DNA from: Branchiostoma lanceolatum
Lineage: Eukaryota > Chordata > Leptocardii > Amphioxiformes > Branchiostomatidae
Direction: 5' to 3'
DNA length: 64,000 bases
Assembly (NCBI RefSeq): GCF_035083965.1
Contig: NC_089738.1
Location: forward strand, 13,356,734-13,420,733
Shown here: positions 1,023 through 39,024 of the stretch, piece by piece
Layout of the letters: each line of letters begins with the position of its first letter
Position numbering within the stretch: the stretch's first letter is position 1
Program-made: the position numbers and the translations under genes
The notes under the pieces: generated by a model
What the model was told of the DNA's origin: nothing
The model's database searches: none
Seen by the model: only the letters and a program-made list of their open reading frames with translations

Positions 1023-4000
1023 ATGACCAGACAACAGCGACTTTGGGCATTGCTGTTATTTCTACAAGCAGTTCTTTTCCTGCTGTATTACTACAAACCA
1101 GAACGTTTGATTCCTGGTAACATGCTGCACTGGAAAATACTGGAAACTCGCGTATATACAAACAGGTGGGCAACAGCAAGCGCGAAGTCATGTTTCCTTC
1201 TGAAGCTATCCTATAAACTGATTATCTGGTTTATTTTGGGAACAAAAATCATTGGGATCAAATAACTGAGGTCGGCAGTTGCATAAAGCAGTATGAATTT
1301 ATAATTTGCTTTGCATAAAGAAATTCATTAACACGTCTGTCCATTGCATTGGTGTAACACTGTAAAAGACAACAAGACACATAAGCATTGGAATCGCATT
1401 TTTGGGCGACGCTCTCAGGGAGTGAGCGAATAATTATACTTATTATTTATTGCAGATAGTGTCCTCGAGTTGTTTTGATTTTAAAACGCATGATATGTCT
1501 GACTGTCGAGAATGGAAATTGTATTCGCTTACCTAAGTTAACGTTGATTTCATGTGTCTATCATGTATCCGTTCTGAAGAACGATTGTATCTTAAACTTG
1601 GCTACGGATGATAAAAAATCTGTTTCTAGAAATGATGCCGTCTCGTTTTCAGCTCCTCTATAGGGCTCGAAGAAGCAGGCAATGGCCAGAATGAAGCTGA
1701 TGTAACCAAGGAGGATAACGACCAGCGCAGCATGCTGCACTGGAAAATACTGGAAACTCGCGTACATACAAACAGGTGGGCAACAGCAAGCGCGAAGTCA
1801 TGTTTCCTTCTGAAGCTATCCTCTAAACTAATGATCTGGTTTATTTTGGGAGCAAAAATCATTGGGATCAAATAACTGAGGTCGGCAGTTGCATAAAGCT
1901 GTATGAATTTATAATTTGCTTTGCATAAAGAAATTCATTAACACGTCTGTCCATTGCATTGGTGTAATACTGTAAAAGACAACAAAACACATAAGCATTG
2001 GAATCGCATTTTTGGGCGACGCTCTCAGGGAGTGAGCGAATAATTATACTTATCATTTATTGCAGATAGTGTCCTCGATTTGTTTTGATTTTAAAACGCA
2101 TGATATGTCTGACTGTCGAGAATGGAAATTGTATTCGCTTACCTAAGTTAACGATGATTTCCTGTGTCTATCATGTATCCATTCTGACGAACGATTGTAT
2201 CTTAAACTTGGCTACGGATGATAAAAAATCTGTTTCTAGAAATGATGCCGTCTCGTTTTCAGCTCCTCTATAGGGCTCGAAGAAGCAGGCAATGGCCAGA
2301 ATGAAGCTGATGTAACCAAGGAGGATAACGACCAGCGCAGCATGCTGCTCTGGAAAATACTGGAAACTCGCGTACATACAAACAGGTGGGCAACAGCAAG
2401 CGCGAAGTCATGTTTCCTTCTGAAGCTATCCTCTAAACTAATGATCTGGTTTATTTTGGGAGCAAAAATCATTGGGATCAAATAACTGAGGTCGGCAGTT
2501 GCATAAAGCTGTATGAATTTATAATTTGCTTTGCATAAAGAAATTCATTAACACGTCTGTCCATTGCATTGGTGTAATACTGTAAAAGACAACAAAACAC
2601 ATAACCATTGGAATCGCATTTTTGGGCGACGCTCTCAGGGAGTGAGCGAATAATTATACTTATTATTTATTGCAGATAGTGTCCTCGAGTTGTTTTGATT
2701 TTAAAACACATGATATGTCTGACTGTCGAGAATTGAAGTTGTATTCGCTTACCTAAGTTAACGTTGATTTCCTGTGTCTATCATGTATCCGTTCTGAAGA
2801 ACGATTGTATCTTAAACTTGGCTACGGATGATAAAAAATCTGTTTCTAGAAATGATGCCGTCTCGTTTTCAGCTCCTCTATAGGGCTCGAAGAAGCAGGC
2901 AATGGCCAGAATGAAGCTGATGTAACCAAGGAGGATAACGACCAGCGCAGCATGCTGCACTGGAAAATACTGGAAACTCGCGTACATACAAACAGGTGGG
3001 CAACAGCAAGCGCGAAGTCATGTTTCCTTCTGAAGCTATCCTCTAAACTAATGATCTGGTTTATTTTGGGAGCAAAAATCATTGGGATCAAATAACTGAG
3101 GTCGGCAGTTGCATAAAGCTGTATGAATTTATAATTTGCTTTGCATAAAGAAATTCATTAACACGTCTGTCCATTGCATTGGTGTAATACTGTAAAAGAC
3201 AACAAAACACATAACCATTGGAATCGCATTTTTGGGCGACGCTCTCAGGGAGTGAGCGAATAATTATACTTATTATTTATTGCAGATAGTGTCCTCGAGT
3301 TGTTTTGATTTTAAAACACATGATATGTCTGACTGTCGAGAATGGAAGTTGTATTCGCTTACCTAAGTTAACGTTGATTTCCTGTGTCTATCATGTATCC
3401 CCGTTCTGAAGAACGATTGTATCTTAAACTTGGCTACGGATGATAAAAAATCTGTTTCTAGAAATGATGCCGTCTCGTTTTCAGCTCCTCTATAGGGCTC
3501 GAAGAAGCAGGCAATGGCCAGAATGAAGCTGATGTAACCAAGGAGGATAACGACCAGCGCAGCATGCTGCTCTGGAAAATACTGGAAACTCGCGTACATA
3601 CAAACAGGTGGGCAACAGCAAGCGCGAAGTCATGTTTCCTTCTGAAGCTATCCTCTAAACTAATGATCTGGTTTATTTTGGGAGCAAAAATCATTGGGAT
3701 CAAATAACTGAGGTCGGCAGTTGCATAAAGCTGTATGAATTTATAATTTGCTTTGCATAAAGAAATTCATTAACACGTCTGTCCATTGCATTGGTGTAAT
3801 ACTGTAAAAGACAACAAAACACATAACCATTGGAATCGCATTTTTGGGCGACGCTCTCAGGGAGTGAGCGAATAATTATACTTATTATTTATTGCAGATA
3901 GTGTCCTCGAGTTGTTTTGATTTTAAAACACATGATATGTCTGACTGTCGAGAATGGAAGTTGTATTCGCTTACCTAAGTTAACGTTGATTTCCTGTGTC

Positions 4001-7000
4001 TATCATGTATCCCCGTTCTGAAGAACGATTGTATCTTAAACTTGGCTACGGATGATAAAAAATCTGTTTCTAGAAATGATGCCGTCTCGTTTTCAGCTCC
4101 TCTATAGGGCTCGAAGAAGCAGGCAATGGCCAGAATGAAGCTGTTGTAACCAAGGAGGATAACGACCAGCGCAGCATGCTGCTCTGGAAAATACTGGAAA
4201 CTCGCGTACATACAAACAGGTGGGCAACAGCAAGCGCGAAGTCATGTTTCCTTCTGAAGCTATCCTCTAAACTAATGATCTGGTTTATTTTGGGAGCAAA
4301 AATCATTGGGATCAAATAACTGAGGTCGGCAGTTGCATAAAGCAGTATGAATTTATAATTTGCTTTGCATAAAGAAATTCATTAACACGTCTGTCCATTG
4401 CATTGGTGTAATACTGTAAAAGACAACAAAACACATAACCATTGGAATCGCATTTTTGGGCGACGCTCTCAGGGAGTGAGCGAATAATTATACTTATTAT
4501 TTATTGCAGATAGTGTCCTCGAGTTGTTTTGATTTTAAAACGCATGATATGTCTGACTGTCGAGAATTGAAGTTGTATTCGCTTACCTAAGTTAACGTTG
4601 ATTTCCTGTGTCTATCATGTATCCGTTCTGAAGAACGATTGTATCTTAAACTTGGCTACGGATGATAAAAAATCTGTTTCTAGAAATGATGCCGTCTCGT
4701 TTTCAGCTCCTCTATAGGGCTCGAAGAAGCAGGCAATGGCCAGAATGAAGCTGATGTAACCAAGGAGGATAACGACCAGCGCAGCATGCTGCTCTGGAAA
4801 ATACTGGAAACTCGCGTACATACAAACAGGTGGGCAACAGCAAGCGCGAAGTCATGTTTCCTTCTGAAGCTATCCTCTAAACTAATGATCTGGTTTATTT
4901 TGGGAGCAAAAATCATTGGGATCAAATAACTGAGGTCGGCAGTTGCATAAAGCTGTATGAATTTATAATTTGCTTTGCATAAAGAAATTCATTAACACGT
5001 CTGTCCATTGCATTGGTGTAATACTGTAAAAGACAACAAAACACATAACCATTGGAATCGCATTTTTGGGCGACGCTCTCAGGGAGTGAGCGAATAATTA
5101 TACTTATTATTTATTGCAGATAGTGTCCTCGAGTTGTTTTGATTTTAAAACACATGATATGTCTGACTGTCGAGAATTGAAGTTGTATTCGCTTACCTAA
5201 GTTAACGTTGATTTCCTGTGTCTATCATGTATCCCCGTTCTGAAGAACGATTGTATCTTAAACTTGGCTACGGATGATAAAAAATCTGTTTCTAGAAATG
5301 ATGCCGTCTCGTTTTCAGCTCCTCTATAGGGCTCGAAGAAGCAGGCAATGGCCAGAATGAAGCTGATGTAACCAAGGAGGATAACGACCAGCGCAGCATG
5401 CTGCACTGGAAAATACTGGAAACTCGCGTACATACAAACAGGTGGGCAACAGCAAGCGCGAAGTCATGTTTCCTTCTGAAGCTATCCTCTAAACTAATGA
5501 TCTGGTTTATTTTGGGAGCAAAAATCATTGGGATCAAATAACTGAGGTCGGCAGTTGCATAAAGCAGTATGAATTTATAATTTGCTTTGCATAAAGAAAT
5601 TCATTAACACGTCTGTCCATTGCATTGGTGTAATACTGTAAAAGACAACAAAACACATAACCATTGGAATCGCATTTTTGGGCGACGCTCTCAGGGAGTG
5701 AGCGAATAATTATACTTATTATTTATTGCAGATAGTGTCCTCGAGTTGTTTTGATTTTAAAACGCATGATATGTCTGACTGTCGAGAATGGAAGTTGTAT
5801 TCGCTTACCTAAGTTAACGTTGATTTCCTGTGTCTATCATGTATCCGTTCTGAAGAACGATTGTATCTTAAACTTGGCTACGGATGATAAAAAATCTGTT
5901 TCTAGAAATGATGCCGTCTCGTTTTCAGCTCCTCTATAGGGCTCGAAGAAGCAGGCAATGGCCAGAATGAAGCTGATGTAACCAAGGAGGATAACGACCA
6001 GCGCAGCATGCTGCTCTGGAAAATACTGGAAACTCGCGTACATACAAACAGGTGGGCAACAGCAAGCGCGAAGTCATGTTTCCTTCTGAAGCTATCCTCT
6101 AAACTAATGATCTGGTTTATTTTGGGAGCAAAAATCATTGGGATCAAATAACTGAGGTCGGCAGTTGCATAAAGCTGTATGAATTTATAATTTGCTTTGC
6201 ATAAAGAAATTCATTAACACGTCTGTCCATTGCATTGGTGTAATACTGTAAAAGACAACAAAACACATAACCATTGGAATCGCATTTTTGGGCGACGCTC
6301 TCAGGGAGTGAGCGAATAATTATACTTATTATTTATTGCAGATAGTGTCCTCGAGTTGTTTTGATTTTAAAACGCATGATATGTCTGACTGTCGAGAATG
6401 GAAGTTGTATTCGCTTACCTAAGTTAACGTTGATTTCCTGTGTCTATCATGTATCCGTTCTGAAGAACGATTGTATCTTAAACTTGGCTACGGATGATAA
6501 AAAATCTGTTTCTAGAAATGATGCCGTCTCGTTTTCAGCTCCTCTATAGGGCTCGAAGAAGCAGGCAATGGCCAGAATGAAGCTGATGTAACCAAGGAGG
6601 ATAACGACCAGCGCAGCATGTCGCCAGGGTCCTCCATTGGTAAAACAAGGTACGCAGAAAGCAGGACAAGTAACATAACATTTGAAGCTGTGTCTCTTGG
6701 TGTTAAAAAGACTATGTGTAGCCTGGGAAAACAATAGGGTTATTGTAGGCACAATGTGCTCCGAGATGTGGATTCGATATGAACATGACCTTGGCTTGAA
6801 GATGATTTCGTGTTGTTTTTCAAGTCCACTGAAGAAGTTCAAATCTTATGCTCGACACATACCGAATGAGAAGGTTGCTCAGGAGAAGTTCTTGGCCGAC
6901 CAGGCAGCTGTGCAGGCCATACCGACGGAAGCACCTGGATGGGTCTATAACAAAACAGCTGCGGATTTATTTCGGTAAGGGTCACCTTCGCGAGACACTG

Positions 7001-9888
7001 TCTATAAACGGATCCCAAGGGATGCTGAGAGTCGCGGGGCACTATGGGTAGCTCAAGGGGCAGACAGAATCATTTCAATGACAACATGCATACAGTGCAG
7101 GCGTACTGTGTCAGGTTTGTGTTGTCATGGTAATGATTTCGCTCTCTGGGATATCAATAATGCCAGAATCTGCCAGCATCGAATGACTCCATGAAAATGG
7201 CCGTTTGTGATCTTTTGGCTATGACGTCATTGAGTGTCCGCCATTGTTTGGTTTAAGGACGCGTGGGAAATCATTAGTTAAACAGCTGATATCTTGGGCT
7301 CAGCCGCAGAACACTATGATTATGAATCTTTCTTTAAATTCCATCTCCTTTCGCCAATGGTGACTGATTTCTTTTTCTTGATACTGTCACAGGAAACGGA
7401 TTGTGTCCGACAGTCGCTTTGCGAACGGGAGTTTTGTGGTCACGCAAGGGCTACCAATGAATTTTGGACTAACCCCTCATACCAAGTCATCCAAGACGTT
7501 CGATAGGCCAGAAGTCACGAAGAACTTTCCTAAGGTAGAGACTTATTTTCCCCTCTTAACAAGATTCCTGATCCCTCTGCATATGCTGCTACTCCCTACC
7601 ATGTAATGCTGCTCAGTGTCCAAACTCTCCTTCATTCAATCCCTTATATGTTTGGATTGGAGCTCTATCTACCAAAATTACCTTATTCATATACAACACG
7701 AATTAAACTTCACCATATTACACATCGTCACAAATGGGTTTTAAACGGTAATCAGAATACAAACCCATGTGTATGTGTATTCTTGACCATATATATACAT
7801 ATATATATATATATATATTTTACACAGGAAAGCCCGTTTAAGAACAGACACTTCAGTACTTGCAGTGTAGTGGGGAACGGTGGGATACTAAAGGGAAGCA
7901 GCTGTGGAAAAGAGATCGACGCTTCCGAGTTTGTGTTCAGGTGAGGTACTATGGGGTAATGTTGATTTGACTATATTATGGATGACACCCGCACATCAGT
8001 TTTCGTTATTACCTAGCCTATAGTTCTAGCCCGCATGGGCTCATTTCACCTGGTTATGCTGATTAATATTACCTGGTACTGTTGATGAGTATTGCCTGGT
8101 TATGTTGGTGAGTATCACCTGGTTAGGTTGGTAAGTATTACCTGGTACTGTTGATGAGTATTGCCTGGTTACGCTGAGGAATATTACCTGGTTATGTTGA
8201 TGAGCATTACCTTATGTGTATGAGTATTACTTGGTTATGTTGATGAATACTGCCTGGTTATGTTGATGAGTATCACCTGGTTATGTTGATGAGCATTACC
8301 TGGTTAGGTTGGTAAGTATTACCTGGTTATGTTGATGACTATTACCTGGTTATGTTGATGACTATTACCTGGTTATGTTGATGAGTATTACCTGGTAATG
8401 GTGATGAGTATTGCCTCATTATGTTGATTAGTATTTTATTGTTCTGGTGATGAATATTACCTGGTTATGTTGATGAGTATTACCTGGTTAGGTTGATGAG
8501 TATTACCTGGTTAGGTTGATGAGTATTACCTGGTTATGGTGATGTACCACTACAACAGGCAGTCAAATCTGGTCTTATTGTCACTTTCCTTCCGAGGCGA
8601 TGTATGACCAATGACAACCTTATTTCTGAACAACCCGTTGTAAAATGAGTTGAGTTTATTGAGATACCCTTTAGCCCCTCTAGGGGGCTAATCTTCCAGG
8701 CAACGACATGAAGCAATAAAGAATGTATTTTTTAAACTTTTGCCCATAATTTGCAGGTGCAACATGGCTCCAATGGGCGATAATTATATGAAGGACATTG
8801 GGAATAAAACCAATCTGATCACTATGAACCCCTCCATGATCAAATACAGGTACTTTTTATGTCTAGTGCACATTGGTGGCAAACTCTGAAACTTGAAAAA
8901 ATGCAGCACAGCCTAGCATCACTATTTTACTACTGAATACACCTTTCATTTGATATGATATCAGAGAAATACATCTTAAATGCAATATCTACCTGCATTG
9001 TCTAAAATCTATTTCTTGCTTTGGTCTCTATCTATATCTCAATTGCTATTTTTACAGAACAATTATCACCAGTTAATTGTGATGTAACTTAAAAAAAACT
9101 TTTTTTAGTCTATGAGTTTTATCTAATATATCTTTACTGTCTTCTTGTAAGTTTTGTAGCCTGGAATCCAGACCTATTATAGCTCACTCGGGAGCTATAA
9201 TAGGTCTGGATTCCAGGCTATAAGTTTCGTACATGTGAAAGCTGACTAACTTTGAAATAATTCTCTCTTATGTTTCATCTAGGTACACCAACAAGAAACA
9301 AAAGTTATTAAACGTTAAAGCCTTGATGCATGACCTCTCTGTGTACGGAGACAGCTACCTGTTGATCTGGGCCCTTCTCTCCGGACGTAACACAAGACGC
9401 CCCGGGAACGTATTTCAAGCTCTGAAGGAAAACAACGCCACTAACCAAGTTATCATCCCATTGCCATACGTCAAAACATCGATGACCTCGTTTTGGAAAG
9501 AGAATGGTTTAGGGGCTCAGCGGCCGTCGACAGGTAGCCATTATAGCATTCAAATTTTAGATTAATGAATTGATCTTATTTTGTATGATTAATTTCAGAT
9601 TTCGTACCATTCTTGTATATGTATCTCATTCTGGTGTATTTCCCTCTTCTTTACTTTTGTGATTATCTAGGGCTATTCCTGGTCGGTCTGGCCACACAAA
9701 TCTGCGAGGAGGTGCGGTTGTATGGCTTCTGGCCCTTCCACGCCGACAGGAGCAACAGACGCCTGACTGAGCACTACTACGACAATGCTCTTCCCGGGAA
9801 AGTCCACAGTGTACCCGATGAGTTCAGACAACTACAGCGTCTCCACAACACAGGAGTTCTTCGTCTCACCACCCACGCGTGTCAATAA
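1023..9888 (+). CDS. ST8Sia-like alpha-2,8-sialyltransferase, copy A, with expanded stem-exon array (~734 aa)
   Basis: This would be a Golgi type II glycosyltransferase (GT29) moving sialic acid from CMP-Sia onto sialylated glycans. Exons: 1023-1165; eight 123-bp exons starting at 1653, 2263, 2873, 3485, 4097, 4707, 5319 and 5929; 6539-6649; 6825-6974; 7393-7534; 7828-7940; 8757-8849; 9283-9533; 9671-9888. All phases agree. Residues 6-24 are a signal-anchor. Sialylmotif L starts [12 protein letters not shown] and runs into RCNMAP and DIGNKT. Motif S spans the last intron (RPSTG joined to the exon beginning LFLVGLATQ). Motif III is HYYDN and motif VS is HSVPDE (H-x4-E). The RPSTG/EIDA/RCN details fit ST8Sia better than ST3Gal or ST6Gal. 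Without the eight extra repeats the protein would be 406 aa, the usual family size. The acceptor at 6824 (TTCAAG) is weak but required by phase. Whether every repeat exon is spliced in is unknown. Confidence 0.88.
1121..6616 (+). repeat. Nine-unit ~610-bp tandem array carrying repeated stem exons
   Basis: Units begin with CATG at 1121, 1731, 2341, 2951, 3563, 4175, 4785, 5397 and 6007, and the array ends at 6616. Units are 610 or 612 bp; the 612-bp ones carry a 2-bp CC insertion in the intron. They differ at only a few positions. Each unit holds the 3' part of exon 1, an intron (donor CAG/GTGGGC, acceptor TTTTCAG) and the 5' part of exon 2. The eight internal junctions create 123-bp phase 2-2 exons, all open. 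A single 609-bp equivalent exists in copy B (12809-13417), so the expansion came after, or was restricted to, copy A. One internal exon variant changes Asp to Val (4097 unit), and His/Leu varies at the codon after MetLeu. Confidence 0.93.
1653..1775 (+). CDS. Chimeric stem exon, first of eight (exon-2 head fused to exon-1 tail)
   Basis: This is the type copy of the repeated exon. It is 123 nt, enters in phase 2 and leaves in phase 2, so including or skipping it never breaks the frame. Its peptide starts [12 protein letters not shown], is acidic in the middle ([11 protein letters not shown]), and ends [11 protein letters not shown], the same tail as exon 1. The split codon AG/C gives Ser after Asn, so each splice creates an Asn-Ser-Ser sequon. 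There are no cysteines. Confidence 0.85.
8048..8543. repeat. 23-bp minisatellite in a copy A intron
   Basis: Degenerate tandem copies of a 23-bp unit, typified by TACCTGGTTATGTTGATGAG, fill most of the intron between the motif L exon (ending 7940) and the exon starting 8757. The corresponding tract in copy B (15107-15625) has a different arrangement of variants. Non-coding. Confidence 0.85.
9157..9220. mobile_element. Short perfect palindrome (MITE-like hairpin) in copy A intron
   Basis: Two 29-base arms (9157-9185 and 9192-9220) are perfect reverse complements around a 6-base loop. The arms begin TAGCCTGGAATCCAGACC. It also occurs at 16245-16308 in copy B, so insertion predates the gene duplication. 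Confidence 0.8.
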
Positions 9889-11700
9889 GCAAAGTCTATA
9901 ATCTAACATACATGTAGATATCTAAACTTTGTTCCAACTTTGTAGTCGCATTATTCTAATCGTCCTGTCACTAATATCGATATCGTTCAAAGCTTGATGT
10001 TTTTAGATACCTGCCTGTTCTTTTAACTATGTTTTAATACCCGAGTGTGTGAGATTGATCGTTATGTGTATTACAGATGATGTTGTTTGCATGTTCGCAG
10101 CTAGAACTCGCGATTACGTTGTTGCATTGGGGTGTAATTTGGAAAATCGTCTGCTAGGTTGCGTGTGATGATGCACGTTGTCTATTTTAAACCGTAATTA
10201 CAGTGTGAGTTTGCGTGGAAGAAGAAAGTGCCTAACATCATCAGTTAGTATGATATCATACGTGAAATATATGTTGGATTTGTCGGTGTGTGGTACGTTG
10301 ATGTGTGCGTACGTTCACAGCATTTGCTTTGTAGGGCTTAGCCACAATGTACACACTATAAATACTTCACGGATAATTGTGTCCTACGGACTCTTGTTGT
10401 GAATTTAGTATCCTGACTTGTTTTGATTTTGTAAGGGCTCCCTTGGAAATCAGTTACCTAGATAGCTGAAAGGATCACCCTAAAGATTAATAGATAGATA
10501 AATTCGGCACCACCGAAGGACTACTGGATGTCGTCATAGGCCTATATCCTCCCTGATGTTTATAGTTAACCGACCCCCCCCCTCTCCGATAGCCGAGCGA
10601 GGTCATCGTCGGCAAAGCCGAAGGGCATCCTCAGTGTGCAATCAGGCATGCACAAGCTTTAGCTGCACTGTTGCCTAACTACCACTTTGTGACATATTAT
10701 GGCACCTTGTTCGACGACTTTTGATGCAGGCACTGGCAGCCATTGTCTGTGGCAAGCTCACAAAACAAGGTCGGACGGACTAGAGAATGTTTTGACAGTT
10801 CTGTCGTAGCGTTTTGCCGTACACTGGTGACCATTCATGCCCAACACCGTTTGTCGGCATCTGCAGCTTTTGACACTGATGAGGTAAGGACAATTGATAA
10901 CATAATATCAGTTCTGCGTTTACCTGCAACAAAGGTAAATTCTCTACAGCATTTTCTAGCAGAAGCTGATGTGTTACGCCGAATGGCGGTTATACCGGCT
11001 ATATATGTAGATAGATATATAGAGAAACAGAAAATGTCCTCCGTGGTCCCTCCTTTGTATCGTTTTGTGCACTGTTCCTTCTAGATAACCCCAAAGGTCA
11101 GATGCAGAGCTTTAAGAACACTTCAGTAGACGAGAGGACAAACCTCTCGCGTATGTGTCGATAGCTATTTGAAATATTGCGGTAATGTAGTCGTTTGTTT
11201 TTGGCATTCAGTTATGCATTCAGTTGTGCCATTGTGCCGATGCCAAAGACGTAGAATTGTTTTTTTTGTTGCTTTTTTTGTTTCTGGCAGGACCTAAGAG
11301 TACAACTGTTACGCAGTCATGATTTCTGATCAACATGTACTCTTGTGTGTTTAAACCGCGACCAAGGCCGCCACCGCCCCCCCCCCCATCTACAATACTC
11401 TCGTGTCACGTGACCTAGTGACCTCTCGTAGGTCACCTGACAACCCAACTCAGAGCTGATGAAGGAGTGGTGGATGCCACCCGAAAGCTACTCAAGCTGC
11501 AATATTTTAGTCGTGAGTATCAGTTTAATTCCTCAACATGTACTCTTGTTGTGTGTCGGAATAACCAGTAACCCTTACGATCTTCCCTCCCAACATTTGC
11601 GTTAAGCTTACACTCCAGGAAGGAGACTCGATTATCTGGAGGGGTTGGAAAGTGACGCCATGGCATGGTTCTAAACTAGTCGAACGGGTCAATATCGCCA
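9889..11700. other. Spacer between the two sialyltransferase copies, with retroelement debris
   Basis: No convincing gene. The first ~190 bases are 3' flank weakly similar to that of copy B. Positions 10432-10505 match, in inverted orientation, 53880-53950, and resemble a LINE 3' tail. Positions 10969-11010 share a 40-base block with 58157-58200 (GTGTTACGCCGAATGGCGGT), which lies just downstream of a reverse-transcriptase remnant. A 113-codon open frame at 10743-11084 overlaps that block and has no recognisable domain. C-rich runs at 10567 and 11379 are simple sequence. Confidence 0.55.
10432..10505 (+). mobile_element. Probable LINE 3'-tail fragment
   Basis: The segment starting GTAAGGGCTCCCTTGGAAAT and ending in a short ATAGATAGATAA run recurs reverse-complemented at 53880-53950. 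Copies sharing one fixed end and a simple-sequence tail are typical of 5'-truncated non-LTR retrotransposons. The family was not identified. Confidence 0.45.
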
Positions 11701-12709: not shown

Positions 12710-15700
12710 ATGACCAGACAACAGCGACTTTGGGCATTGCTGTTATTTCTACAAGCAGTTCTTTTCCTGCTGTATTACTACACACCAGAACGTTTGATTC
12801 CTGGTAACATGCTGCCCTGGAAAATACTGGAAACTCGCGTATATACAAACAGGTGGGCAACAGCAAGCGCGAAGTCATGTTTCCTTCTGAAGCTATCCTA
12901 TAAACTGATTATCTGGTTTATTTTGGGAACAAAAATTATTGGGATCAAATAACTGAGGTCGGCAGTTGCATAAAGCAGTATAGATTTATAATTTGCTTTG
13001 CATAAAGAAATTCATTAACACGTCTGTCCATTGCATTGGTGTAATACTGTAAAAGACAACAAAACACATAAGCATTGGAATCGCATTTTTGGGCGACGCT
13101 CTCATGGAGTGAGCGAATAATTATACTTATTATTTATTGCAGATAGTGTCCTCGATTTGTTTTGATTTTAAAACGCATGATATGTCTGACTGTCGAGAAT
13201 GGAAATTGTATTCGCTTACCTAAGTTAACGATGATTTCCTGTGTCTATCATGTATCCATTCTGACGAACGATTGCATCTTAAACTTGGCTACGGATGATA
13301 AAAAATCTGTTTCTAGAAATGATGCCGTCTCGTTTTCAGCTCCTCTATAGGGCTCGAAGAAGCAGGCAATGGCCAGAATGAAGCTGATGTAACCAAGGAG
13401 GATAACGACAAGCGCAGCATGTCGCCAGGGTCCTCCATTGGTAAAACAGGGTACGCAGAAAGCAGGATAAGTAACATAACATTTGAAGCTGTGTCTCTGG
13501 GTGTTAAAAAGACTGTGTGTGGCCTGGGAAAACAATAGGGTTATTGTAGCCACAATGTGCTCCGAGATGTGGATTCGATATGAACATGACCTTGGCTTGA
13601 AGATGATTTCGTTTTGTTTTTCAAGTCCACTGAAGAAGTTCAAATCTTATGCTCGACACATACCGAATGAGAAGGTTGCTCAGGAGAAGTTCTTGGCCGA
13701 CCAGGCAGCTGTGCAGGCCATACCGACGGAAGCACCTGGATGGGTCTATAACAAAACAGCTGCGGATTTATTTCGGTAAGGGTCACCTTCGCGAGACACT
13801 GTCTATAAACGGATCCCAAGGGATGCTGAGAGTCGCGGGGCACTATGGGTAGCTCAAGGGGCAGACAGAATCATTTCAATGACAACATGCATACAGTGCA
13901 GGCGTACTGTGTCAGGTTTGTGTTGTCATGGTAATGATTTCGCTCTCTGGGATATCAATAATGCCAGAATCTGCCAGCATCGAATGACTCCATGAAAATG
14001 GCCGTTTGTGATCATTTGGCTATGACGTCATTGAGTGTCCGCCATTGTTTGGTTTAAGGACGCGTGGGAAATCATGAGGTAAACAGCTGACATCTTGGGC
14101 TCAGCCGCAGAACACTATGATTATGAATCTTTCTTTGAATTCCATCTCCTTTCGCCAATGGTGACTGATTTCTTTTTCTTGATATTGTCACAGGAAAGGG
14201 ATTGTGTCCGACAGTCGCTTTGCGAACGGGAGTTTTGTGGTCACGCAAGGGCTACCAATAAATTTTGGACTAACCCCTCATACCAAGTCATCCAAGAAGT
14301 TCGATAGGCCAGAAGTCACGAAGAACTTTCCTAAGGTAGAGACTTATTTTCCCCTCTTAACAAGATTCCTGATCCCTCTGGATATGCTACTACTCCCTAC
14401 CATGTAATGCTGCTCAGTGTCCAAACTCTCCTTTATTCAATCCCTTATATGTTTGGAGCTCTATCTACCAAAATTACCTTATTCATATACAACACGAATT
14501 TAACTTCACCATATTACACATCGTCACAAATGGGTTTTAAACGGTAATCAGAATACAAACCCATGTGTATGTGTATTATTGACCATATATATACATATAT
14601 TTATATTTTACACAGGAAAGCCCGTTTAAGACCAGACACTTCAGTACTTGCAGTGTAGTGGGGAACGGTGGGATACTGAAGGGAAGCAGCTGTGGAAAAG
14701 ATATCGACGCTTCCGAGTTTGTGTTCAGGTGAGGTACTATGGGGTAATGTTGATTTGACTATATTATGGATGACACCCGCGCGCACATCAATGTAGTAGT
14801 ATGCCAAAGCAAACTCCATAGTCAAAGAAGAAGATGTGAAAGGAAAAAAAAGGAGACTCTGTTCATTTAATCCTGACGACGTAGTTTTCATAATGAAGGC
14901 AACTTTTTCCACGACTTTTATTTATTCGCCCGCTCGCATCAGTTTTGGGGTTCCCAGAGGATGTCATCCATATGATGAAATCAACATGGCCTAAGAATAC
15001 AGGTTCTGATTCAATTGCTGTATGATAGGCCATCAAATTGAACTGTATACTTAATTTAGAAACGTTATTACCTAGCCTATAGTTCTAGCTCGCATGGGCT
15101 CATTTCACCTGGTTATGCTGATTAATATTACCTGGTACTGTTGATGAGTATTGCCTGGTTATGCTGAGGAATATTACCTGGTTATGTTGATGAGCATTAC
15201 CTTATGTTTATGAGTATTACTTGGTTATGTTGATGAATACTGCCTGGTTAGGTTGGTAAGTATTACCTGGTTATGTTGATGACTATTACCTGGTTATGTT
15301 GATGAGTATTACCTGGTAATGGTGATGAGTATTGCCTCATTATGTTGATAAGTATTTTATTGTTATGTTGATGAATATTACCTGGTTATGTTGATGAGTA
15401 TTACCTGGTTAGGTTGGTAAGTATTACCTGGTTATGTTGATGACTATTACCTGGTTATGTTGATGAGTATTACCTGGTAATGGTGATGAGTATTGCCTCA
15501 TTATGTTGATTAGTATTTTATTGTTATGTTGATGAATATTACCTGGTTATGTTGATGAGTATTACCTGGTTATGTTGATGAGTATTACCTGGTTAGGTTG
15601 ATGAGTATTACCTGGTTATGGTGATGTACCACCACAACAGGCAGTCAAATCTTGTCTTATTGTCACTTTCCTTCCGAGGCGATGTATGACCAATGACAAC

Positions 15701-16976
15701 CTTGACCATATTTCTGAACAACCCGTTGTAAAATGAGTTGAGTTTATTGAGATACCCTTTAGCCCCTCTAGGGGGCTAATCTTCCAGGCAACGACATGAA
15801 GCAATAAAGAATGTATTTTTTAAACTTTTGCCCATAACTTGCAGGATCAACATGGCTCCAATGGGCGATAATTATATGAAGGACATTGGGAATAAAACCA
15901 ATCTGATCACTATGAACCCCTCCATGATCAAATACAGGTACTTTTTATGTCTAGTGCACATTGGTGGCAAACTCTGAAACTTGACAAAATGCAGCACAGC
16001 CTAGCATCACTATTTTACTACTGAATACACCTTTCATTTGATATGATATCAGAGAAATACATCTTAAATGCAATATCTACCAGCATTGTCTAAAATCTAT
16101 TTCTTGCTTTGGTCTCTATCTATATCTCAATTGCTATTTATACAGAACAATTATCACCAGTTAATTGTAATGTAACTTTAAAAAAACTTTTTCTAGTCTA
16201 TGAGTTTTATCTAATATATCTTTACTGTCTTCTTGTAAGTTTTGTAGCCTGGAATCCAGACCTATTATTGCTCACTCGGGAGCTATAATAGGTCTGGATT
16301 CCAGGCTATAAGTTTCGTACATATGAAAGCTGACTAACTTTGAAATAATTCTCTCTTATGTTTCATCTAGGTACACCAACAAGAAACAAAAGTTGTTAAA
16401 CGTTAAAGCCTTGATGCATGACCTCTCTGTGTACGGAGACAGCTACCTGTTGATCTGGGCCCTTCTCTCCGGACATAACACAAGACGCCCCGGGAACGTA
16501 CTGCAAGCTCTGAAGGAAAACAACGCCACTAACCAAGTTATCATCCCATTCCCATACGTCACAACATCGATGACCTCGTTTTGGAAAGAGAATGGTTTAG
16601 AGGCTCAGCGGCCGTCGACAGGTAGCCATTATAACATTCAAATTTTAGATTAATGAATTGATCTGATTTTGTATGATTAATTTCAGATTTCGTACCATTC
16701 TTGTATATGTATCTCATTCTGGTGTATTTCCCTCTTCTTTACTTTTGTGATTATCTAGGGCTAATCCTGGTCGGTCTGGCCACACAAATCTGCGAGGAGG
16801 TGCGGTTGTATGGCTTCTGGCCCTTCCACGCCGACAGGAGCAACAGACGCCTGACTGAGCACTACTACGACAATTCTCTTCCGACGCAAGTCCACAGTGT
16901 ACCCGATGAGTTCAGACAACTACAGCGTCTCCACAACACAGGAGTTCTTTGTCTGACCACCCACGCATGTCAATAA
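12710..16976 (+). CDS. ST8Sia-like alpha-2,8-sialyltransferase, copy B (406 aa, compact form)
   Basis: Eight exons: 12710-12852, 13340-13450, 13626-13775, 14194-14335, 14616-14728, 15845-15937, 16371-16621 and 16759-16976. All junction phases agree (2,2,2,0,2,2,1). Predicted features: signal-anchor at residues 6-24; short stem; motif L from Cys194; motif S at about 331-353 ending YGFWPF; motif III at His369-Tyr370-Tyr371; motif VS His380 to Glu385. Sequons include NSS at the exon 1/2 junction, NKT, NGS and NAT. Differences from copy A include Ile for Cys in the RCN triplet after motif L, Asp for Glu in GKEID, Gly for Arg at KRIV, and Leu-Pro-Thr-Gln for Leu-Pro-Gly-Lys before motif VS. It appears intact. 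The exact acceptor substrate (GD3-type, oligo- or polysialic) cannot be read from sequence. Confidence 0.88.
14781..15062. mobile_element. ~280-bp insertion present only in copy B intron
   Basis: Copy A reads directly from GATGACACCCGC into ACATCAGTTTTCGTTATTACC (around 7990). Copy B has about 280 extra bases between the equivalent points. Part of the flanking text (CGCACATCA / CGCATCAGTTTT) is repeated at both sides, compatible with an insertion and a short target duplication. No coding or terminal repeat was recognised. Confidence 0.5.
15107..15625. repeat. 23-bp minisatellite in copy B intron
   Basis: Same repeat as 8048-8543. A roughly 180-bp block of variant units (including GTATTGCCTCATTATGTTGA) occurs twice inside the tract, indicating an internal duplication not seen in copy A. 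Confidence 0.85.
16245..16308. mobile_element. Short palindrome, copy B counterpart
   Basis: Same position as the 9157-9220 hairpin, with one mismatch now present between the 29-base arms. Confidence 0.75.
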
Positions 16977-17237
16977 GCAGACCATGTCCGCGATTTCATA
17001 CCAGCAGCATTAGTGACGATGATTATGATGACGACTGTAATGACTAGCAGTAGATAGCTGAACTTCGTTCTAACTTGGTGGCCATGGTCGCATTCTATTC
17101 GTCCTGTTGAAAGCTTAACGGTTTAATACCTGTCTAGTATTTTAAACATGTTTTAAGGCGCGTGTGTGAATATCAATGAACGATAGTTATGCTTTTATTT
17201 TACACTTTTTATTCACAACTGTGCAACTATTTCCTTC

Positions 17238-20140
17238 ATTATCTTCGCCGAGTACTTGTACTCGGGAAGATTATGTTTTCGGTTGAAAAATCTGTTAGGT
17301 GGGTCTGTATGTATGTCAGGCACATAACTCAAGAAAGCTTCGATGAATCTTTATGATTTTTGGTAGGTGTGTAGTGGTTGTGCAAAGGAAAGTCAAGTTC
17401 GAAAATGGTTCATCTTGCGTTTTTCAACAGTACTGCAGCGGACTTTGAATTTTTTTGTGTTTGTATGTAGGCAAAAAAAGTGACGGAAACGTTGATGGAT
17501 CTTCATTATTTTTTGCAGGTGTGTAGATGTTGTAAAAACGGAGGTCAAGTTCAAAAATGGTTCTCCTGGCATTTTCCGTCGGTACTGCAGCGGGCTTTGT
17601 TTCGATGTGTATTTCTTGTGGACAAGATAACTCGAAAAGCTGTCGATGGTTCTGCATGATATTTAGTGGATGGGTAGGGTTTACAAAAAGGAAGGTCAAG
17701 TTCGATAATGGGCATTCTAGCGGGTACCTAAGGTACTGCAGCCGAGCTTCAAAATTTGAGGGCATGTTTTCTACAAGTGCTATGGTCATGATTTTTGTGT
17801 GGTAGATAGTCCATGTTATAGGAAGTAAGTTGTAAAAGTTTGGGCCCCCTAGTGTCTTGTTTGGAACTGCAGTGGGTGTTATTGTTTTGACCTTCGGACA
17901 GGAATAACTTGAGAAGGGGTCGACAGATCGTCGTGACGTTTGGCATTCAGATAGCTCAGATGATGCTTTACATAATAAATGACTAATTACGCGAATCAGG
18001 ATATAATTTGCATAATTAGTAAGGAAAGTTTGATGCATTTCATATTGGGACTCTTAAACATGTGACGGTTTCCCCGAAAACAGGTCTTACAAACAGATGG
18101 CCTGGGAAAGTAGGTCAAACTAGAGTTCCACGACCTCATACCTTCGCCGACTGATGTTAACCTTTTCGAGTGAATGCTTATCACTCAGTATGTAAATAAG
18201 GTCCTCGATTGCATGAATTTCAAGTGATCCTTTTCTCTACACTAAACACAGCATTAAAGTAAAATCTTAGAAAAGAGGGCCATTGTAGCATTTCCTCATA
18301 TATCATGTAAATGAGGCCATCATGATTTATGTCTGATAACATCCACATTTGATTATCTCCCAAACGCCACAAGAATGAAATCCCATCATTTACCACTCTG
18401 GAATTATAGTATTTTGTCATAAATTATGCAAATTAGGTATTCGTTTGCATAATTGATATCTATCAATATTCCTCTATTTCTCGGTTACATGTCACGTGTT
18501 TGACTACAATGGAATGCAAGGGTTTGTATACTTTTTCACATCACAGATCCTGATTTGCATGATTCTTATACGATCATGTAAATCATCACTCAAACTATGT
18601 ACATCCCTACAAATCATGACGATCCGTCATCACCTTCTTGAGTTACTAGTATTCTCTTTCAAAGTTTAAAACAAACCCATACCTATACCTACACGAGTTC
18701 TCCCAAGAGTTATAAAAATAATCACTGTAAGAATATTTTTGCTTAATTGGTATCATAACTTTTATCTTTACTACAGAAAATAAGGCAATTTGTTGGCAAT
18801 GTATTTGCTTCAATTATGCCCATATTTTCATAGTCGACATATCAATCAGTTTTTATCAAACCTATACCTTCCAACAGGGAGAGCGTTAGATCGTTAGCCC
18901 GTGTGACCTCCCTGACCCCAAAACAGAGCCCTGCACCAGGCAAGTAAAGTATCACATGTGTCCTCCAGGGACGTCTCACAGGGAGCCTGCTCCGGTAAAC
19001 TAGGTCACCTGTCAGTGCAATTTAACCTGAATAAATAGACTTAAAAATAGCAAATTGAAAGGGAATTGTAGACATTTCCTTATAAATTATGTTAATGAGG
19101 CCTTGTCATGCATGATTTTTGTCTGATATTGTTCACCTTTACTTAGCTTCCTAATGATACAAGAATGAAATTCCAATCATTTACTATTGTGGTATTTTCA
19201 ATTAGTATTCTCTCATTAATTATGCAACATTGGTAGCTATTAGCATTATTGGTATCTATCGATACCTCTCTCTTTTTCAGCTATATATGTCACATGTTTG
19301 AGAGTCCTATTTTGAAAGGCAGCAGATTTATAAACTTTCCTTGCTAATTATGCAAATTAGCTCCTGATTTGCATAATGAATATTCAATCATGTAAATAAT
19401 TAATCGAGCTATCTACATACCATAAATCAAGACGATCCGTTGACCACAAGTCTAGTTATTCATGTCCAAAGGTCAAAACAAATAAATTAAAAACACCCGC
19501 TACAGCTCCAAACAAGCCGCTAGAGGGCCCAAACGTGCACAACTTACTTCATGTGGCATGGACTATCTACCACACAAAAATCATGATCGTAGCACTTGCA
19601 GAAAATTCGACCTCAAACTTTGAAGCTACACTGCAGTACCCAAAGTACCCGCTAGGAGGCCCATCATCGAACTTGACCTTCCCCTTTAATAAATCTACCT
19701 ATTCACTATATATTATGCACAACCATCAACAGCTTCTCGAGTCATCCTGTCAACAAACAAACACGCATACATAAACAGCCCACTGCAGTACCGCAGGAAA
19801 ATGCCAGGTGACCCATTTTTGAACTTGAGCTTTGTTTTCACAATCTCTACGTACCCACCAAAAATCTTGCAGATCCATCATCAATACGTCGAGTTATGTT
19901 GTCTACATACAAACACACTAACAAAAAAAGTCCACTGGAGCACTTTAGGAAAACGCAAGGTTAACCATTTTCGAACTTGACCTTCGTTCCCACAACCGCC
20001 ACTTACCTACCAAAAATCAGCAAGATCCGTCAAAGTTCTCTCGACTTATGATCTCGACATACATACGGACCCACTTTACAGCTGGCGTAACCGATAACAT
20101 AACCTTACCGCGAATGCATACATTCCCGGCGAAGGTAATA
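17238..20140. mobile_element. ~2.9-kb fold-back element with long inverted arms
   Basis: The left end (ATTATCTTCGCCG) is the inverse of the right end (CGGCGAAGGTAAT), and similarity continues inward on both sides (GGGTCTGTATGTATGTC against its complement near 20060). Each arm is built of degenerate sub-repeats pairing GTCAAGTTCGAAAATGG-type and ACTGCAG-type motifs. There is no transposase-like frame, so it is a non-autonomous fold-back/long-TIR element. A 204-codon minus-strand frame (17424-18038) lies entirely in the left arm and shows no domain. Related single arms lie at 41902-43010, in several introns of the mosaic gene, and at 59640-60210. Confidence 0.75.
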
Positions 20141-25998: not shown

Positions 25999-26457
25999 GC
26001 AGAACACAGTATTTCGCCTATGGGGATTGACATGGTTAAGGACCCCAAAGTGAGAAGGTTCGATGCTTCAATATTTATAGCAGGGTGCACAATGAAATTA
26101 GAAGAATTTGTTTGACTTCAAGGTATGATCTACAAAATATGTGAAAATTGAAGGTTGGTTGGTTGGTTGGTTGGTTGGTGTCAGTGGGTTGGTGTTGGTT
26201 GGTTGGTTGGTTGGTTGGTTGGTTGGTTGGTTGGTTGGTTGGCTGGCTGAACTCAACACAGTATGCATGCACCGCATACGCAATATCATGTAAATGTGTC
26301 GACTGCCCCCTAAATTACTAACATTTCTACAACCTGGAATATGAGGGTAACAACGATGTAGATGCAGATATGGCCTATTGATTGATATTGAGTGATTGAT
26401 TTATTCTTTGATTGATCAATTTTGATTTCTGCAGGGGGCTGCTGGCATCTTTGAGAA
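25999..26457. repeat. Upstream flank of SLC16-like gene 1 with (GGTT)n microsatellite
   Basis: GGTT tetranucleotide repeats run from 26153 to about 26248, interrupted by TGTCAGTGGGTTGGTG. Downstream, TTTCTGCAG at 26426-26434 is a good splice acceptor for the exon carrying the start codon at 26458, implying a 5' UTR intron. Confidence 0.75.
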
Positions 26458-29400
26458 ATGGCTAGCAGGAGTCAGAAGGTGCAGTACCGGGACCAGCCTC
26501 CAGATGGCGGTTGGGGTTGGATGGTGGTGTTCAGCAGTTTCCTGGTCCACGTTGTCGTGGTGGGGTCCATAAAGTCCTTCGGGGTGTTCTACGCCGCGTT
26601 CCGAGACGTGTTTGACGAGGGCGCTGGAGACACCGCCTTTATCAACTCAACGCTGGTGGGAATGATGTTGATTTGCTGTGAGAAAGAATTCAAATCTTTA
26701 ACCTTCTCCCTGCTGCCTAACTCTGTAACCAATAGAGAATGGGCTGCCGAATGGCTACTTTAGTGTGCTAAAGGTTAAGTTCTCTGGAGCTGTTCATATT
26801 AGAGCAGTAACAGTTATTGTATCATATCATTTCATCATATCATAGTGTTCGAATAAGAGTCAGTATTTTGCCAATAAGGTCCTAGTGTTACGCCAAAAAT
26901 AATTACTCAAGCAACTGGATAAAGTTTTGAAACAGTCAGACGTTTCAGACAGCATCCACTGTCTTTCGTCAGTGACTAGTGTTGTTAATTTTATTTCTGG
27001 ATTAGAAGTTCGTAATAAATCAAATCCAAGCCTACACCTTAAAAGGTGCTGAACCCTAAGTTATAAACTAGGATACAAGGGAAATTGATCAACACCTTTA
27101 GCCACCATATATCTTGAAAAGAGAACAGTTATCCCCTGGATAGACCCTAACCTTGATACTTTGAGATGTGCTTGAGATGTCCTCAAAGATGGGACCTATG
27201 GCTTTATGCCCCGTCCTTGTAGACGCCCCTAACCAAACTTAGGTACTCATTTTCACCTGATAGGGATTCGAATCCAGAACTTTCAGCTTGAATTCTAAGT
27301 CAACATCCCAAATCACCATAGCCTGGGTAACATTCTCCATAGTAACTGCTGGCTTAGTCTGTATAATGCAAACTACAGCTGTCCCAGGGTTTTATGTCCA
27401 CTGCCAGGCTGGCTGGTTACGGGCGGCTACTATAAGCCTAATTAAATCAGGCTACCGCTGGCTCATTCCTTTTGCTTGCTAATCTCTGTGGTTAGCAAGC
27501 GAAAAGATTGAGCCAGCGGTAAAATTTACTATTGAGAATGGTACCCAGCCTGAGTACCAGCCTCCGTAGTGACTGCTGGCTCAAAAAAAATTCGCTTGCT
27601 AACTTTCTTGAGCCAGCGGTCACTACGGAGGTTGGTACTCGGGCTAACCCAGGCTAGAAACATCATGCACCATATGCCACCTGGAGTTAAACTTCCTGCC
27701 TGTTTTATTTACTACAGCTCCCATAGCCAGCGCGCTGAGTAAGCTGACCAGCTGTCGCGTGATGGTGTTTACCGGAGGAGTGCTGGCAGCCGTCGGGTTC
27801 GTCATCAGCTCGTTCGCGACCAGCGTGATGTACCTACTGGTCAGCCTGGGAATTTTCACAGGTAAAACAAGATTTCTAAGTTCCGGAATATACTTAGTTG
27901 TTATACTTTCGGGTGTCCTGTATGTCTTGTTTGATTGTAGTTCATTAATCATGCAAATAAGGTTTTGATTACTAGTAATATTACATGTGTCTATTGATCA
28001 CTTTCTGTCCATTCCATTCCATATTGTTTCATTTTGTTCCATTTCGTTCCATTTCATTCTGTTTTGTTCCTCGGGACACGATTTTAAAAGCTAATGATAC
28101 ATTTGCTTGATAGTTTCAATTTGCATGAGAAAGACAGTTCAGTAGGACATACAATATGTCTCTCAGAACTAATACTGACAGTACTCAGATTTTGCCTTAT
28201 TACTACTGTTTTATTTATTTATTTATTTATTTGTTTGGCATGCATTGTATTTACATGCCAGGGTTGCCCAACTAGCTTAAGCTATTACAAAGGGCAACCC
28301 TGGGAGAAAAAAAATACTTATTCATATTAATGAGATTAGTTCCTTAAAATTGTTAGATATAAGCATAGCATTAGCAATGCAAATAACTTGCCATACATTG
28401 TACCTGTTACAATCGCCATGCAATTTAATTCTTCTTCTTCTTTTATCATCTGTTTTCAGGGTTCGCAATGTCGTTGATTTACTCGCCATGTCTGACAATG
28501 GTAGGGCGTTACTTCGACAAGAGGAGAGCGACAGCGAACGGAATCGGATTGTCGGGGAATGGGGTGGGAATGTTCGCCCTGTCACCTCTGTATCAAGTCC
28601 TGATTGACGAGTTTAGTTATCGAGGTGCGCTGCTAATAATCGCCGGCATCACTCTGCACGGGTGCATCTGTGGGGCCTTACTGAGGCCGATACATCTCAG
28701 GGAAGACCAGGAACACAAAGCTGTTCTGGACCAGAAGAAGCAAAACATGGTAGAAAATTCGCAGTCTTCATGCAGAATGACTGCTAGCAAGGTCTTACAC
28801 ATTTTTGATGTGTCGCTTTTGACGGACGTTCCCTTTGCGTTGTTTACTTTCTCTCATTTCGGTACGGTGCTCGGTTACTCCATCGTATTTGTTCACATGG
28901 CGAAACACGCGCAAAACATCGGAGTTGGCAAAACCGAGGCATCATTTTTGATCTCGGTGATGGGGATTACCGAGTTTGTATTCCGGCTGATTGGAGGCTG
29001 GTTCGCAGACTTAGGAGTCATCAGTAGACTCCACGTCTATATGATAGGAGTGGCTGGGGTGGGCGTGTGCAATCTATTCGTGCCTTTCTGTTCGTCGTAT
29101 GCCTCCCTTGTTGTGTACATGGCCTTCTACGGGCTGTTCTCCGGAGTGTTCCACGCCCTGATCACGGTGTTGGTCCGAGAGTACACGGGAGTGGCCCGAC
29201 TGTCCAGTGGAATCGGATGGACCTTCTTAGGAGGAGGAGTGGCTTATCTACTGGGCTCACCTATCGCAGGTATGGCAGCTTTTCACATATTTAGTTTCTT
29301 GCTTTTTTAAAAATCCATACTTAATAAGGCATTCATCATTCCCATCAGACATAACTTATGAGTCTGCATGGGGGGGGGGGGCACTATTCAATACTGGATT

Positions 29401-29826
29401 ATGAATGGTTCATTTCTTTGTTAGTGTGTTATGAAATTTTACAAACCTTGTTTGGTTTTGAATTTACAAAAATGTGTTGCTAAGTATTTTAGAAACTAAC
29501 CTTAGCTAATCTGCTGTTGAGTAACCCTTTAAGATTTCTACTTATAGCTAAAATTTTCCCAGTGTTTCCTGACTACAAATTTGTTCTTGCCTCACAATCC
29601 AGGCTGGCTGTACGATGTCACGGGGAACTACAACGTCTCGTTCTACTGCTCAGGCGCCATGGTCCTCGCGTCTCTCAGCATTCTCTTTTTTGAGAAGTGT
29701 GCCAAACACGACGGGCCTGACGGAGATACCACGGAAGACGATTCTACAACACAAGACATAAGTAGAGAAAGTATAGAGGGAACGGTAACAGAGCCAATGC
29801 TCACAGAGAGGGAGACAACAGTATAG
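26458..29826 (+). CDS. SLC16 (monocarboxylate transporter-like) gene 1, 465 aa
   Basis: A 12-TM major-facilitator protein that would move monocarboxylates or related small solutes across the plasma membrane. Exons: 26458-26677, 27718-27861, 28460-29269 and 29603-29826, all joined in phase 1. The family signature PPDGGWGWMVV opens TM1, followed by a lysine in GSIKSFGVFY at the position of the catalytic lysine of human MCT1. TM4-5 carries YFDKRRATANGIG. TM8 carries EFVFR (Arg at about residue 297, equivalent to the substrate arginine of MCT1), but the following Pro seen in genes 2 and 3 is Leu. A hydrophilic loop separates TM6 and TM7, and the acidic C-tail ends ERETTV. The initial Met follows an acceptor and a short 5' UTR. 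The family member and substrate cannot be named. Confidence 0.9.
27120..27325 (-). mobile_element. tRNA-derived SINE, minus strand, in SLC16 gene 1 intron 1
   Basis: Read on the minus strand it contains GGATTCGAATCC (B-box) preceded by AAAGTTCT and followed by GTGAAAATGAGTACCTA, both present in the + strand SINE at 30900-31265. Truncated at its 3' side. Confidence 0.6.
27319..27656. mobile_element. Nested-hairpin MITE, TAGCCTGGGT ends
   Basis: It begins TAGCCTGGGTAAC and ends with the complement GGCTAACCCAGGCTA. Inside are two further hairpins, including an inverted pair around 27558-27640 (AGTACCAGCCTCCGTAGTGA against its complement) and GCTGGCTCA/TGAGCCAGC repeats. It abuts the minus-strand SINE. 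Confidence 0.65.
28205..28310 (-). mobile_element. Retroelement 3'-end fragment with (TTTA)n tail, minus strand
   Basis: Reverse-complemented, the block reads GGGTTGCCCTTTGTAATAGC then GCTAGTTGGGCAACCCTGG, followed by an A/T simple tail (TTTATTTATTTA on the + strand). A close relative on the + strand lies at 62370-62420 (CCCTTTGTAATAGCC, GCTAGTTGGGCAG). A shared 3' end plus tail suggests a LINE family. Confidence 0.45.
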
Positions 29827-30899
29827 CATTCTCACTTGTATCTTGTGCAATTGCGATATGGACATTGTGAAAGAGAATGTCATATTGTTGTATAAAGATA
29901 TGGAAAATGTCGTCTCAAATGCCTTTCCATATGGTAGTATCATCATCATCATCAGTCGACGTGCTTACGCACTGTGGAGGTTATTTATGGGGTGACATAC
30001 TCTTTCGTTGGCAACTATTTAATTGGCAAGTAGATACTGGGATAAGGACACTGTGGTATATCATTTCCCATCTATCAAAAGCAGCAGAATTTCCGGTGGG
30101 GGGGAGTGGGTTAAAGCTAAAAAGCATTGTATGCACAGATTTGTAAATTGTCTTTTAGTAATCTTACTAATTTTTCATTAAAAAAACTTAATCTTGAATA
30201 TCTACCTCTAATTCTTGTCCAAACCAGTGGATATATTAGTACAATTAATTATATGAAGAAGTACAATTATGCTACTGCATTTGTAGAGAATATTTCTTGT
30301 TTCGAATGTTTAAAACTCAGAAGCCATATGTTTCTTTCCGTTAGATTTTACAAATAAATAAAAAAATGTGTGCACAGGAAGTACATATCAGGAAACATAC
30401 TGTGTAGAAACAAGGTTTTATGAAAGCAAGAAAGTGTTATTCTTGAATTTTTGCGGTGGTTTTATGTTAGCGGTTTTTGCGGTGACCACTTCGCTGCAAA
30501 CATAAAACCTTTGTTTTCATTACTGTGCAGTATAAGATGGTTTAAATATGACTACAGCGCTATCATGAACTTAAAACCTGCAAAATTAAATCACCACAAA
30601 CTTTAAGAAGGCACTAACAGTACCCTTGTAAGAAATAGAATACAACATATCAGCTACTAGTAATCATGATTAAGATTTGTAAGGCAAATACTGTGTAAAA
30701 CCAAAGTGGCGGCCTTAAAGCTAAGCAACTGTATGCTCAAAAATATTTTTCTGACAGTATTAAGAATGGCAAGTACCTATGTCTACCATTGCAATAAAAG
30801 TATTTGAATTTTTTATTGGTAACCATGTCTTGTATATAGTGTTTTATCTCCCAACTTGCTAGACGAGAGATTAACAATAAATGACTGAACTGTCTTCAA
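29827..30899. other. 3' flank of SLC16 gene 1
   Basis: AT-rich. Candidate polyadenylation signals AATAAATAAA (30353) and CAATAAAAG (30791) lie downstream of the stop; no other gene was recognised. Confidence 0.45.
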
Positions 30900-38867: not shown

Positions 38868-39024
38868 TGGGTATATTTGCAATATAGTTAGCCTGACTAA
38901 ATCGTGCTCCTAGCGGCTCTTGGGGTAGGGGTCATTAACCTCCGCCAGCAGCGAGAGCGTGTAAACACAGGCTATGGTATGCAAAGGTGTATATCATTGT
39001 GTTGAATTTGTACTGTATTGTGTG

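Follow-up and report, generated by a model that had tools for sequence, protein, structure and literature searches.

Two neighbouring sialyltransferase genes, A and B, lie within the 64,000-nt stretch of Branchiostoma lanceolatum DNA analysed here (NC_089738.1, positions 13,356,734 to 13,420,733 of the forward strand; the window), and in gene A the region around intron 1 is present as nine tandem units, which between them form eight complete predicted exons of 123 nt. The array is most likely a young, probably length-variable representative of the lancelet repeats known as mirages that is at least partly spliced into the mRNA. The fuller reading that we lean towards, with modest confidence and from sequence evidence, is a mirage-type array whose complete exons are mostly or all included, extending the stem of the enzyme to give a product of up to 734 residues, and whose number of units varies.

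The array and its founding junction

A BLAST comparison of the window against itself recovered nine head-to-tail units of 610 or 612 bp, starting at 1121, 1731, 2341, 2951, 3563, 4175, 4785, 5397 and 6007 and together spanning 1121-6616 of gene A, whereas Tandem Repeats Finder did not return the array (longest period there 500). This agrees with an earlier note on the same DNA, which had described nine units of about 610 bp. Pairwise identities of 97.4–99.7% place the array far beyond chance. In each unit, 45 nt from the 3' end of exon 1 are followed by the complete intron 1, of 487 or 489 nt, and then by 78 nt from the 5' end of exon 2. Units are joined at CATG. This tetranucleotide occurs in exon 1 (AACATGCTG) as well as in exon 2 (AGCATGTCG), and in either exon its ATG is read as a codon. 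A chimeric exon thereby consists of the front of exon 2 with its own acceptor, fused in frame to the back of exon 1 with its own donor. The acceptor (CG)TTTTCAG occurs nine times in the array and is followed in eight cases by 123 nt ending at the donor CAG/GTGGGC, the ninth (6539) being that of the original exon 2. With 143 nt in exon 1 and 123 nt in each chimeric exon, both boundaries of every chimeric exon fall after the second base of a codon (phase 2-2), and none of the eight contains a stop codon, so that the open, symmetric exons claimed by the earlier note are each present in the sequence.

By chance, roughly one join in three would keep the frame. The eight chimeric exons are copies of one founding junction rather than eight independent coincidences, and the openness, symmetry and splice sites of the later copies follow from their having been copied from one in-frame CATG event. 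We infer that unequal exchange at the 4-bp CATG shared by exons 1 and 2 duplicated the exon 1-intron 1-exon 2 segment of gene A, and that later unequal exchange and conversion raised the array to nine units. Since an entire intron, flanked by its two splice boundaries, is contained in each unit, every added unit would make a further complete 123-nt exon.

Divergence within the array is low and uneven. Units 3–9 are at least 99.0% identical, and differences from the array intron consensus number 10, 7, 2, 1, 1, 2, 2, 1 and 0 for units 1 to 9. All nine units are nevertheless distinct, with no identical pair, and all four gametes are found in 8 of the 28 pairs formed by eight variable columns chosen by hand. 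This combination implies repeated exchange among units, as expected for such an array. The array is probably young, with units exchanging and variable in number. Variation in number between individuals would also be expected because the mirage of the globin gene BflGb6 has 6 and 3 units in two haplotypes (PMC3087553). The same source offers a precedent for error in assembly, since the BflGb6 mirage of one haplotype was apparently misassembled in the amphioxus draft. That the genome holds only one or a few units, multiplied by the assembler, is very improbable here given that no two of the nine are identical, and that their mosaic combinations and the 2-bp insertion common to units 4, 5 and 7 fit unequal exchange and not simple stutter.

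Expected splicing of the chimeric exons and the predicted stalk

Intron 1 itself relies on the same donor and acceptor as the chimeric exons, and over the stretch compared the nine donors of the array are identical, as are its nine acceptors. Scored with a weight matrix, the chimeric donor reaches 4.67, second among the seven distinct donors of gene A (range 0.72–7.31). The acceptor has pyrimidines at 10 of 12 positions, the highest in gene A (others 7–9), and one other acceptor in gene B also has 10. The exon length of 123 nt falls within that of the other internal exons of the gene (93–251 nt). Since acceptor and donor compare well with the others of the gene, nearest-neighbour splicing would be expected to include most or all of the chimeric exons, and on these sequence features the inclusion of at least some of them is on balance probable.

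Several observations weigh against this. Mirages in Adh3, globin genes and TnC are reported, and that in PGBD5 is suggested, not to disturb splicing (PMC3087553, PMC3902484), which argues for skipping of the chimeric exons. Purifying selection on these exons was not detected: in substitutions counted by hand from the unit alignment, 3 of 123 exon sites vary compared with 17 of 487 intron sites (p=0.78). Nor was constraint detectable when each exon was taken with 30 nt on either side and compared with the intron interior (3 of 183 and 17 of 427 variable; p=0.21). All three exon changes alter the amino acid (His/Leu, Tyr/His and Asp/Val). Between genes A and B, whose coding sequences differ at 28 of 1,221 bases, nonsynonymous (dN) and synonymous (dS) divergence are 0.0236 and 0.0224 by NG86 and 0.0246 and 0.0191 by YN00, a dN/dS of about 1.05 or 1.29 on only 28 differences.

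The behaviour of these mirages and the lack of detectable constraint on the exons would suit a silent array, in which exon 1 is joined straight to the original exon 2, the eight chimeric exons are removed as one intron and gene A makes a protein of 406 residues, in frame and of the same length as that of gene B. The first donor must then bypass eight identical nearer acceptors. In each copy the two sites are spaced normally, 123 nt apart, and they compare well with the others of the gene. The precedents also differ in structure. The BflGb6 repeat comprises the 3' end of an intron and the 5' part of an exon, and that of BflGb9 the 3' boundary of exon 2 (PMC3087553). By our reading these globin repeats, with a single boundary each, make no complete exon, unlike the units here. 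We give weight to this difference, and consider complete skipping possible but rather unlikely.

We rejected the argument that the open frames themselves reveal selection. In a neutral simulation in which eight copies mutated independently at the mean intron rate of the array, with stops scored and splice sites left out of the score, all eight exons stayed stop-free in 84% of 20,000 runs. Open frames argue neither for nor against function. As signs of function, openness and symmetry weigh little, since a single in-frame CATG join in a young array accounts for both.

If the exons are included as we favour, the product would be a sialyltransferase with type II topology and as many as 734 residues, its stem carrying up to eight extra units of 41 residues, one for each chimeric exon. 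The repeats are positioned between an N-terminal hydrophobic stretch, judged by eye, and the match to the GT29 domain, in agreement with the placement of the earlier note in the stem. The junctions each bear one NSS sequon, so that the full form has 13 sequons, compared with 5 in the gene B product. Single-sequence structure prediction of one unit places a helix over residues 13–40 of 41 after a loose start, with a mean predicted local distance difference test (pLDDT) score of 76.3 for the best model and 66.5–76.3 across five models. On this weak evidence, the stalk would probably alternate between short linkers open to glycosylation and helices, each unit consisting of a short linker, which bears the N-glycosylation sequon, and then the predicted helix. 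Two joined repeats had no Pfam match at E 0.1.

The reading frame of gene A gives 734 residues with all chimeric exons and 406 with none, neither form having an internal stop, and any subset of the exons keeps the frame. The claim that exons can drop out in any number while the frame is kept is thus borne out. The graded stalk lengths that the earlier note derived from it are possible; the frame symmetry, their sole support, is explained by one in-frame join. A stronger version, in which a selected and regulated device lets cells vary how many symmetric exons are included and so set a graded range of stalk lengths, is very improbable. It would draw on the frame-keeping subsets, on the sequon and predicted helix that each exon adds, and on the plant Golgi enzyme GNTI of tobacco, where a nine-residue stem motif is needed for efficient self-association (PMC10715278). 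Set against it are the lack of detectable constraint, the neutral copies that stay open in most simulated runs, the youth of units that exchange sequence, and identical splice sites that would offer no obvious regulatory handle.

It is possible, though less likely than not, that gene A encodes a Golgi glycosyltransferase in which the distance from membrane to active site is polymorphic in length, heritably and perhaps also through tuning by splicing. With every gain or loss of a 610-bp unit the protein would then have one glycosylated helical 41-residue segment more or fewer, individuals or tissues would carry from zero to eight (or more) extra segments, and reach, Golgi position or shedding would differ accordingly. 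Used exons would provide a natural stem-length series in one Golgi enzyme that could test the role of the glycosyltransferase stem, gene B and the skip form serving as controls already at hand. Skipped exons would also be informative, as a stringent example in which the spliceosome passes over eight exons that are complete and well formed.

Enzyme identity, the paralogue and the surrounding window

Both genes encode GT29 sialyltransferases that are ST8Sia-like by sequence, as the earlier note had proposed. A Pfam search matched the GT29 domain (PF00777) in the skip form of A (E=5.4e-60, 203.5 bits) and in B (E=1.3e-59, 202.3 bits). With 149.8 bits for A and 143.9 for B, the nearest solved structure is the alpha-2,8-sialyltransferase 5bo8/5bo6, which we take to be human ST8SiaIII, and the next enzyme among solved structures is beta-galactoside alpha-2,6-sialyltransferase 1 (47.2 and 48.4 bits). 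The alignment of A to 5bo8 takes in sialylmotifs L, S, III and VS, with HYYD and the C-terminal cysteine, the placement of the motif letters in the gene A product being presumptive. These four sialylmotifs are common to all animal sialyltransferases (PMC2564942). With its N-terminal hydrophobic stretch (about residues 7–24, 18 letters) as a putative anchor, the gene A product is expected to be a type II membrane protein.

That A might be a decaying copy is unsupported. It scores above B for Pfam GT29 and for ST8SiaIII and slightly below B for the ST6Gal, ST6GalNAc and ST3Gal structures. The motif FRCN is found in A and 5bo8, with FRIN in B. A is identical to 5bo8 at N188, E211 and C221, where B differs, and the other differences concern similar-residue marks in both directions.

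Gene B, with a single unit and a product of 406 residues as the earlier note stated, is close to A up to the stop codon (0–4% divergence in aligned segments, excluding the intron 5 minisatellite). The 3' flanks (9889-10288 in A, 16977-17376 in B) have weak homology, with 59 mismatches at 173 aligned sites and a local score of 52.5, the highest score among 200 two-base-block shuffles being 24.0. Since the gene bodies are 0–4% apart and the 3' flanks far more diverged, the sequences suggest an older tandem duplication with recent homogenisation of the gene bodies. The single unit of B (12808-13417) is a left/right mosaic of array units 1 and 2 when compared with 1121-2340 of A. Its intron region agrees with unit 1 and not units 2–9 at five left sites (1155, 1213, 1220, 1223 and 1242), and with unit 2 and no other unit at four right sites (1469, 1544, 1571 and 1578). 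Either the 5' edge of the array has kept older sequence, or B would be a contracted two-unit array rather than the ancestral state.

Both genes carry a 23-bp minisatellite in intron 5, with 21.7 copies in A (8048-8544) and 22.7 in B (15107-15626) in different internal arrangements, and some 280 bp ahead of it in B (about 14780-15062) are unmatched in A. Intron 6 of A contains a near-perfect inverted repeat (9154-9223; TAGCCTGGAATCCAGACC... and its complement), which recurs in B at about 16242-16311 and resembles a small hairpin element.

Table 1. Positions in the window of the array, its predicted chimeric exons and the exons of genes A and B
Feature	Position	Strand	Remarks
Array	1121..6616	+	9 units, each running from within exon 1 through intron 1 into exon 2; junctions at CATG
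Predicted chimeric exon 1	1653..1775	+	123 nt, 41 aa, His variant
Predicted chimeric exon 2	2263..2385	+	123 nt, Leu variant
Predicted chimeric exon 3	2873..2995	+	123 nt, His variant
Predicted chimeric exon 4	3485..3607	+	123 nt, Leu variant
Predicted chimeric exon 5	4097..4219	+	123 nt, Leu variant, Asp to Val
Predicted chimeric exon 6	4707..4829	+	123 nt, Leu variant
Predicted chimeric exon 7	5319..5441	+	123 nt, His variant
Predicted chimeric exon 8	5929..6051	+	123 nt, Leu variant
Gene A exon 1	1023..1165	+	Start codon, N-terminal hydrophobic stretch, stem start; donor CAG/GTGGGC
Gene A original exon 2	6539..6649	+	111 nt
Gene A exon 3	6825..6974	+	
Gene A exon 4	7393..7534	+	
Gene A exon 5	7828..7940	+	First part of sialylmotif L (presumptive motif placement)
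Gene A exon 6	8757..8849	+	End of sialylmotif L; Cys of FRCN kept
Gene A exon 7	9283..9533	+	
Gene A exon 8	9671..9888	+	Sialylmotif S, HYYD, C-terminal Cys, stop
Gene B	12710..16976	+	Paralogue, single unit, 406 aa
Gene B exons 1-4	12710-12852, 13340-13450, 13626-13775, 14194-14335	+	
Gene B exons 5-8	14616-14728, 15845-15937, 16371-16621, 16759-16976	+	

Elsewhere in the window, 10 of the 129 listed open reading frames (ORFs) were scanned against Pfam, and 8 matched. ORFs at 28429-29307, 33175-34095 and 37325-38329 match MFS_1 and that at 26455-26760 is without a match, and in the region 26455-38900 a transporter gene appears to be present in three tandem copies. A recurring PPDGGW(G/R)W in its ORFs presumably points to the SLC16 monocarboxylate group. 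Tandem Repeats Finder reported a 196-bp unit in 5.3 copies with 85% matches at 39027-40094. A second tandem duplication repeats 45785-49435 at 49433-52617 (two blocks, 95–96%) and more weakly at 54638-57043 (89–92%), within the stretch between 44 and 61 kb of the window, where ORFs match CUB, Sushi, MAM and SRCR, with WSC below the cutoff.

Relation to mirages and other known systems

Mirages are tandem repeats across splice boundaries described in the lancelet genes Adh3, BflGb6, BflGb9, TnC and PGBD5 (PMC3087553, PMC3902484). Judged by its sequence, the array in gene A is a mirage in this basic sense. It has in common with them tandem splice-boundary copies inside a gene, similar units, signs of homogenisation and a lancelet host. 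A further trait of mirages, that the edges of the cluster are spared homogenisation, applies to the 5' edge of the array and not to its 3' edge. The unit of 610 bp is far larger than those given for Adh3 (10–72 bp), BflGb6 (150–160 bp) and PGBD5 (60 and 108 bp). Unlike those repeats, it contains a whole intron with both boundaries and so yields a complete, in-frame, symmetric coding exon.

By analogy, the closest functional parallel would be the human kringle IV-2 repeat of LPA (KIV-2), with units of about 5.55 kb and complete exons that are 98–100% alike (PMC7613587). Both arrays consist of near-identical tandem units with complete in-frame exons, those of LPA lengthening a secreted protein. 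In LPA each unit has two exons that code for a kringle, and the units are known to differ in number and to be translated, whereas here a single 123-nt exon codes for a predicted linker and helix.

The ST8Sia family, with its EX group known from Branchiostoma floridae and sea urchin, offers further points of likeness, namely a GT29 domain, ST8SiaIII as nearest solved structure and tandem copies, the ST8Sia EX genes being tandemly duplicated in B. floridae (PMC2564942). A and B may belong to this group, which is marked by a basal place in the ST8Sia phylogeny. Neither 'stem region' nor 'exon' occurs in the main text of that paper, in which repeated stem exons are not described, and literature searches for such repeats in any glycosyltransferase found none among the matches listed, judged by their titles and the openings of their abstracts. 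For glycosyltransferase stems the view of the earlier note that the arrangement is undescribed is thus upheld within those matches. As a general statement it does not stand, given the precedents of lancelet mirages and LPA KIV-2. Splice-boundary arrays in lancelets are already known, and what sets this one apart is a unit with both boundaries that makes complete exons. Should these exons be used, a splice-boundary repeat would have given rise to coding exons in a single step, much as in the origin of new exons and introns from mirages that was proposed with the globin cases (PMC3087553).

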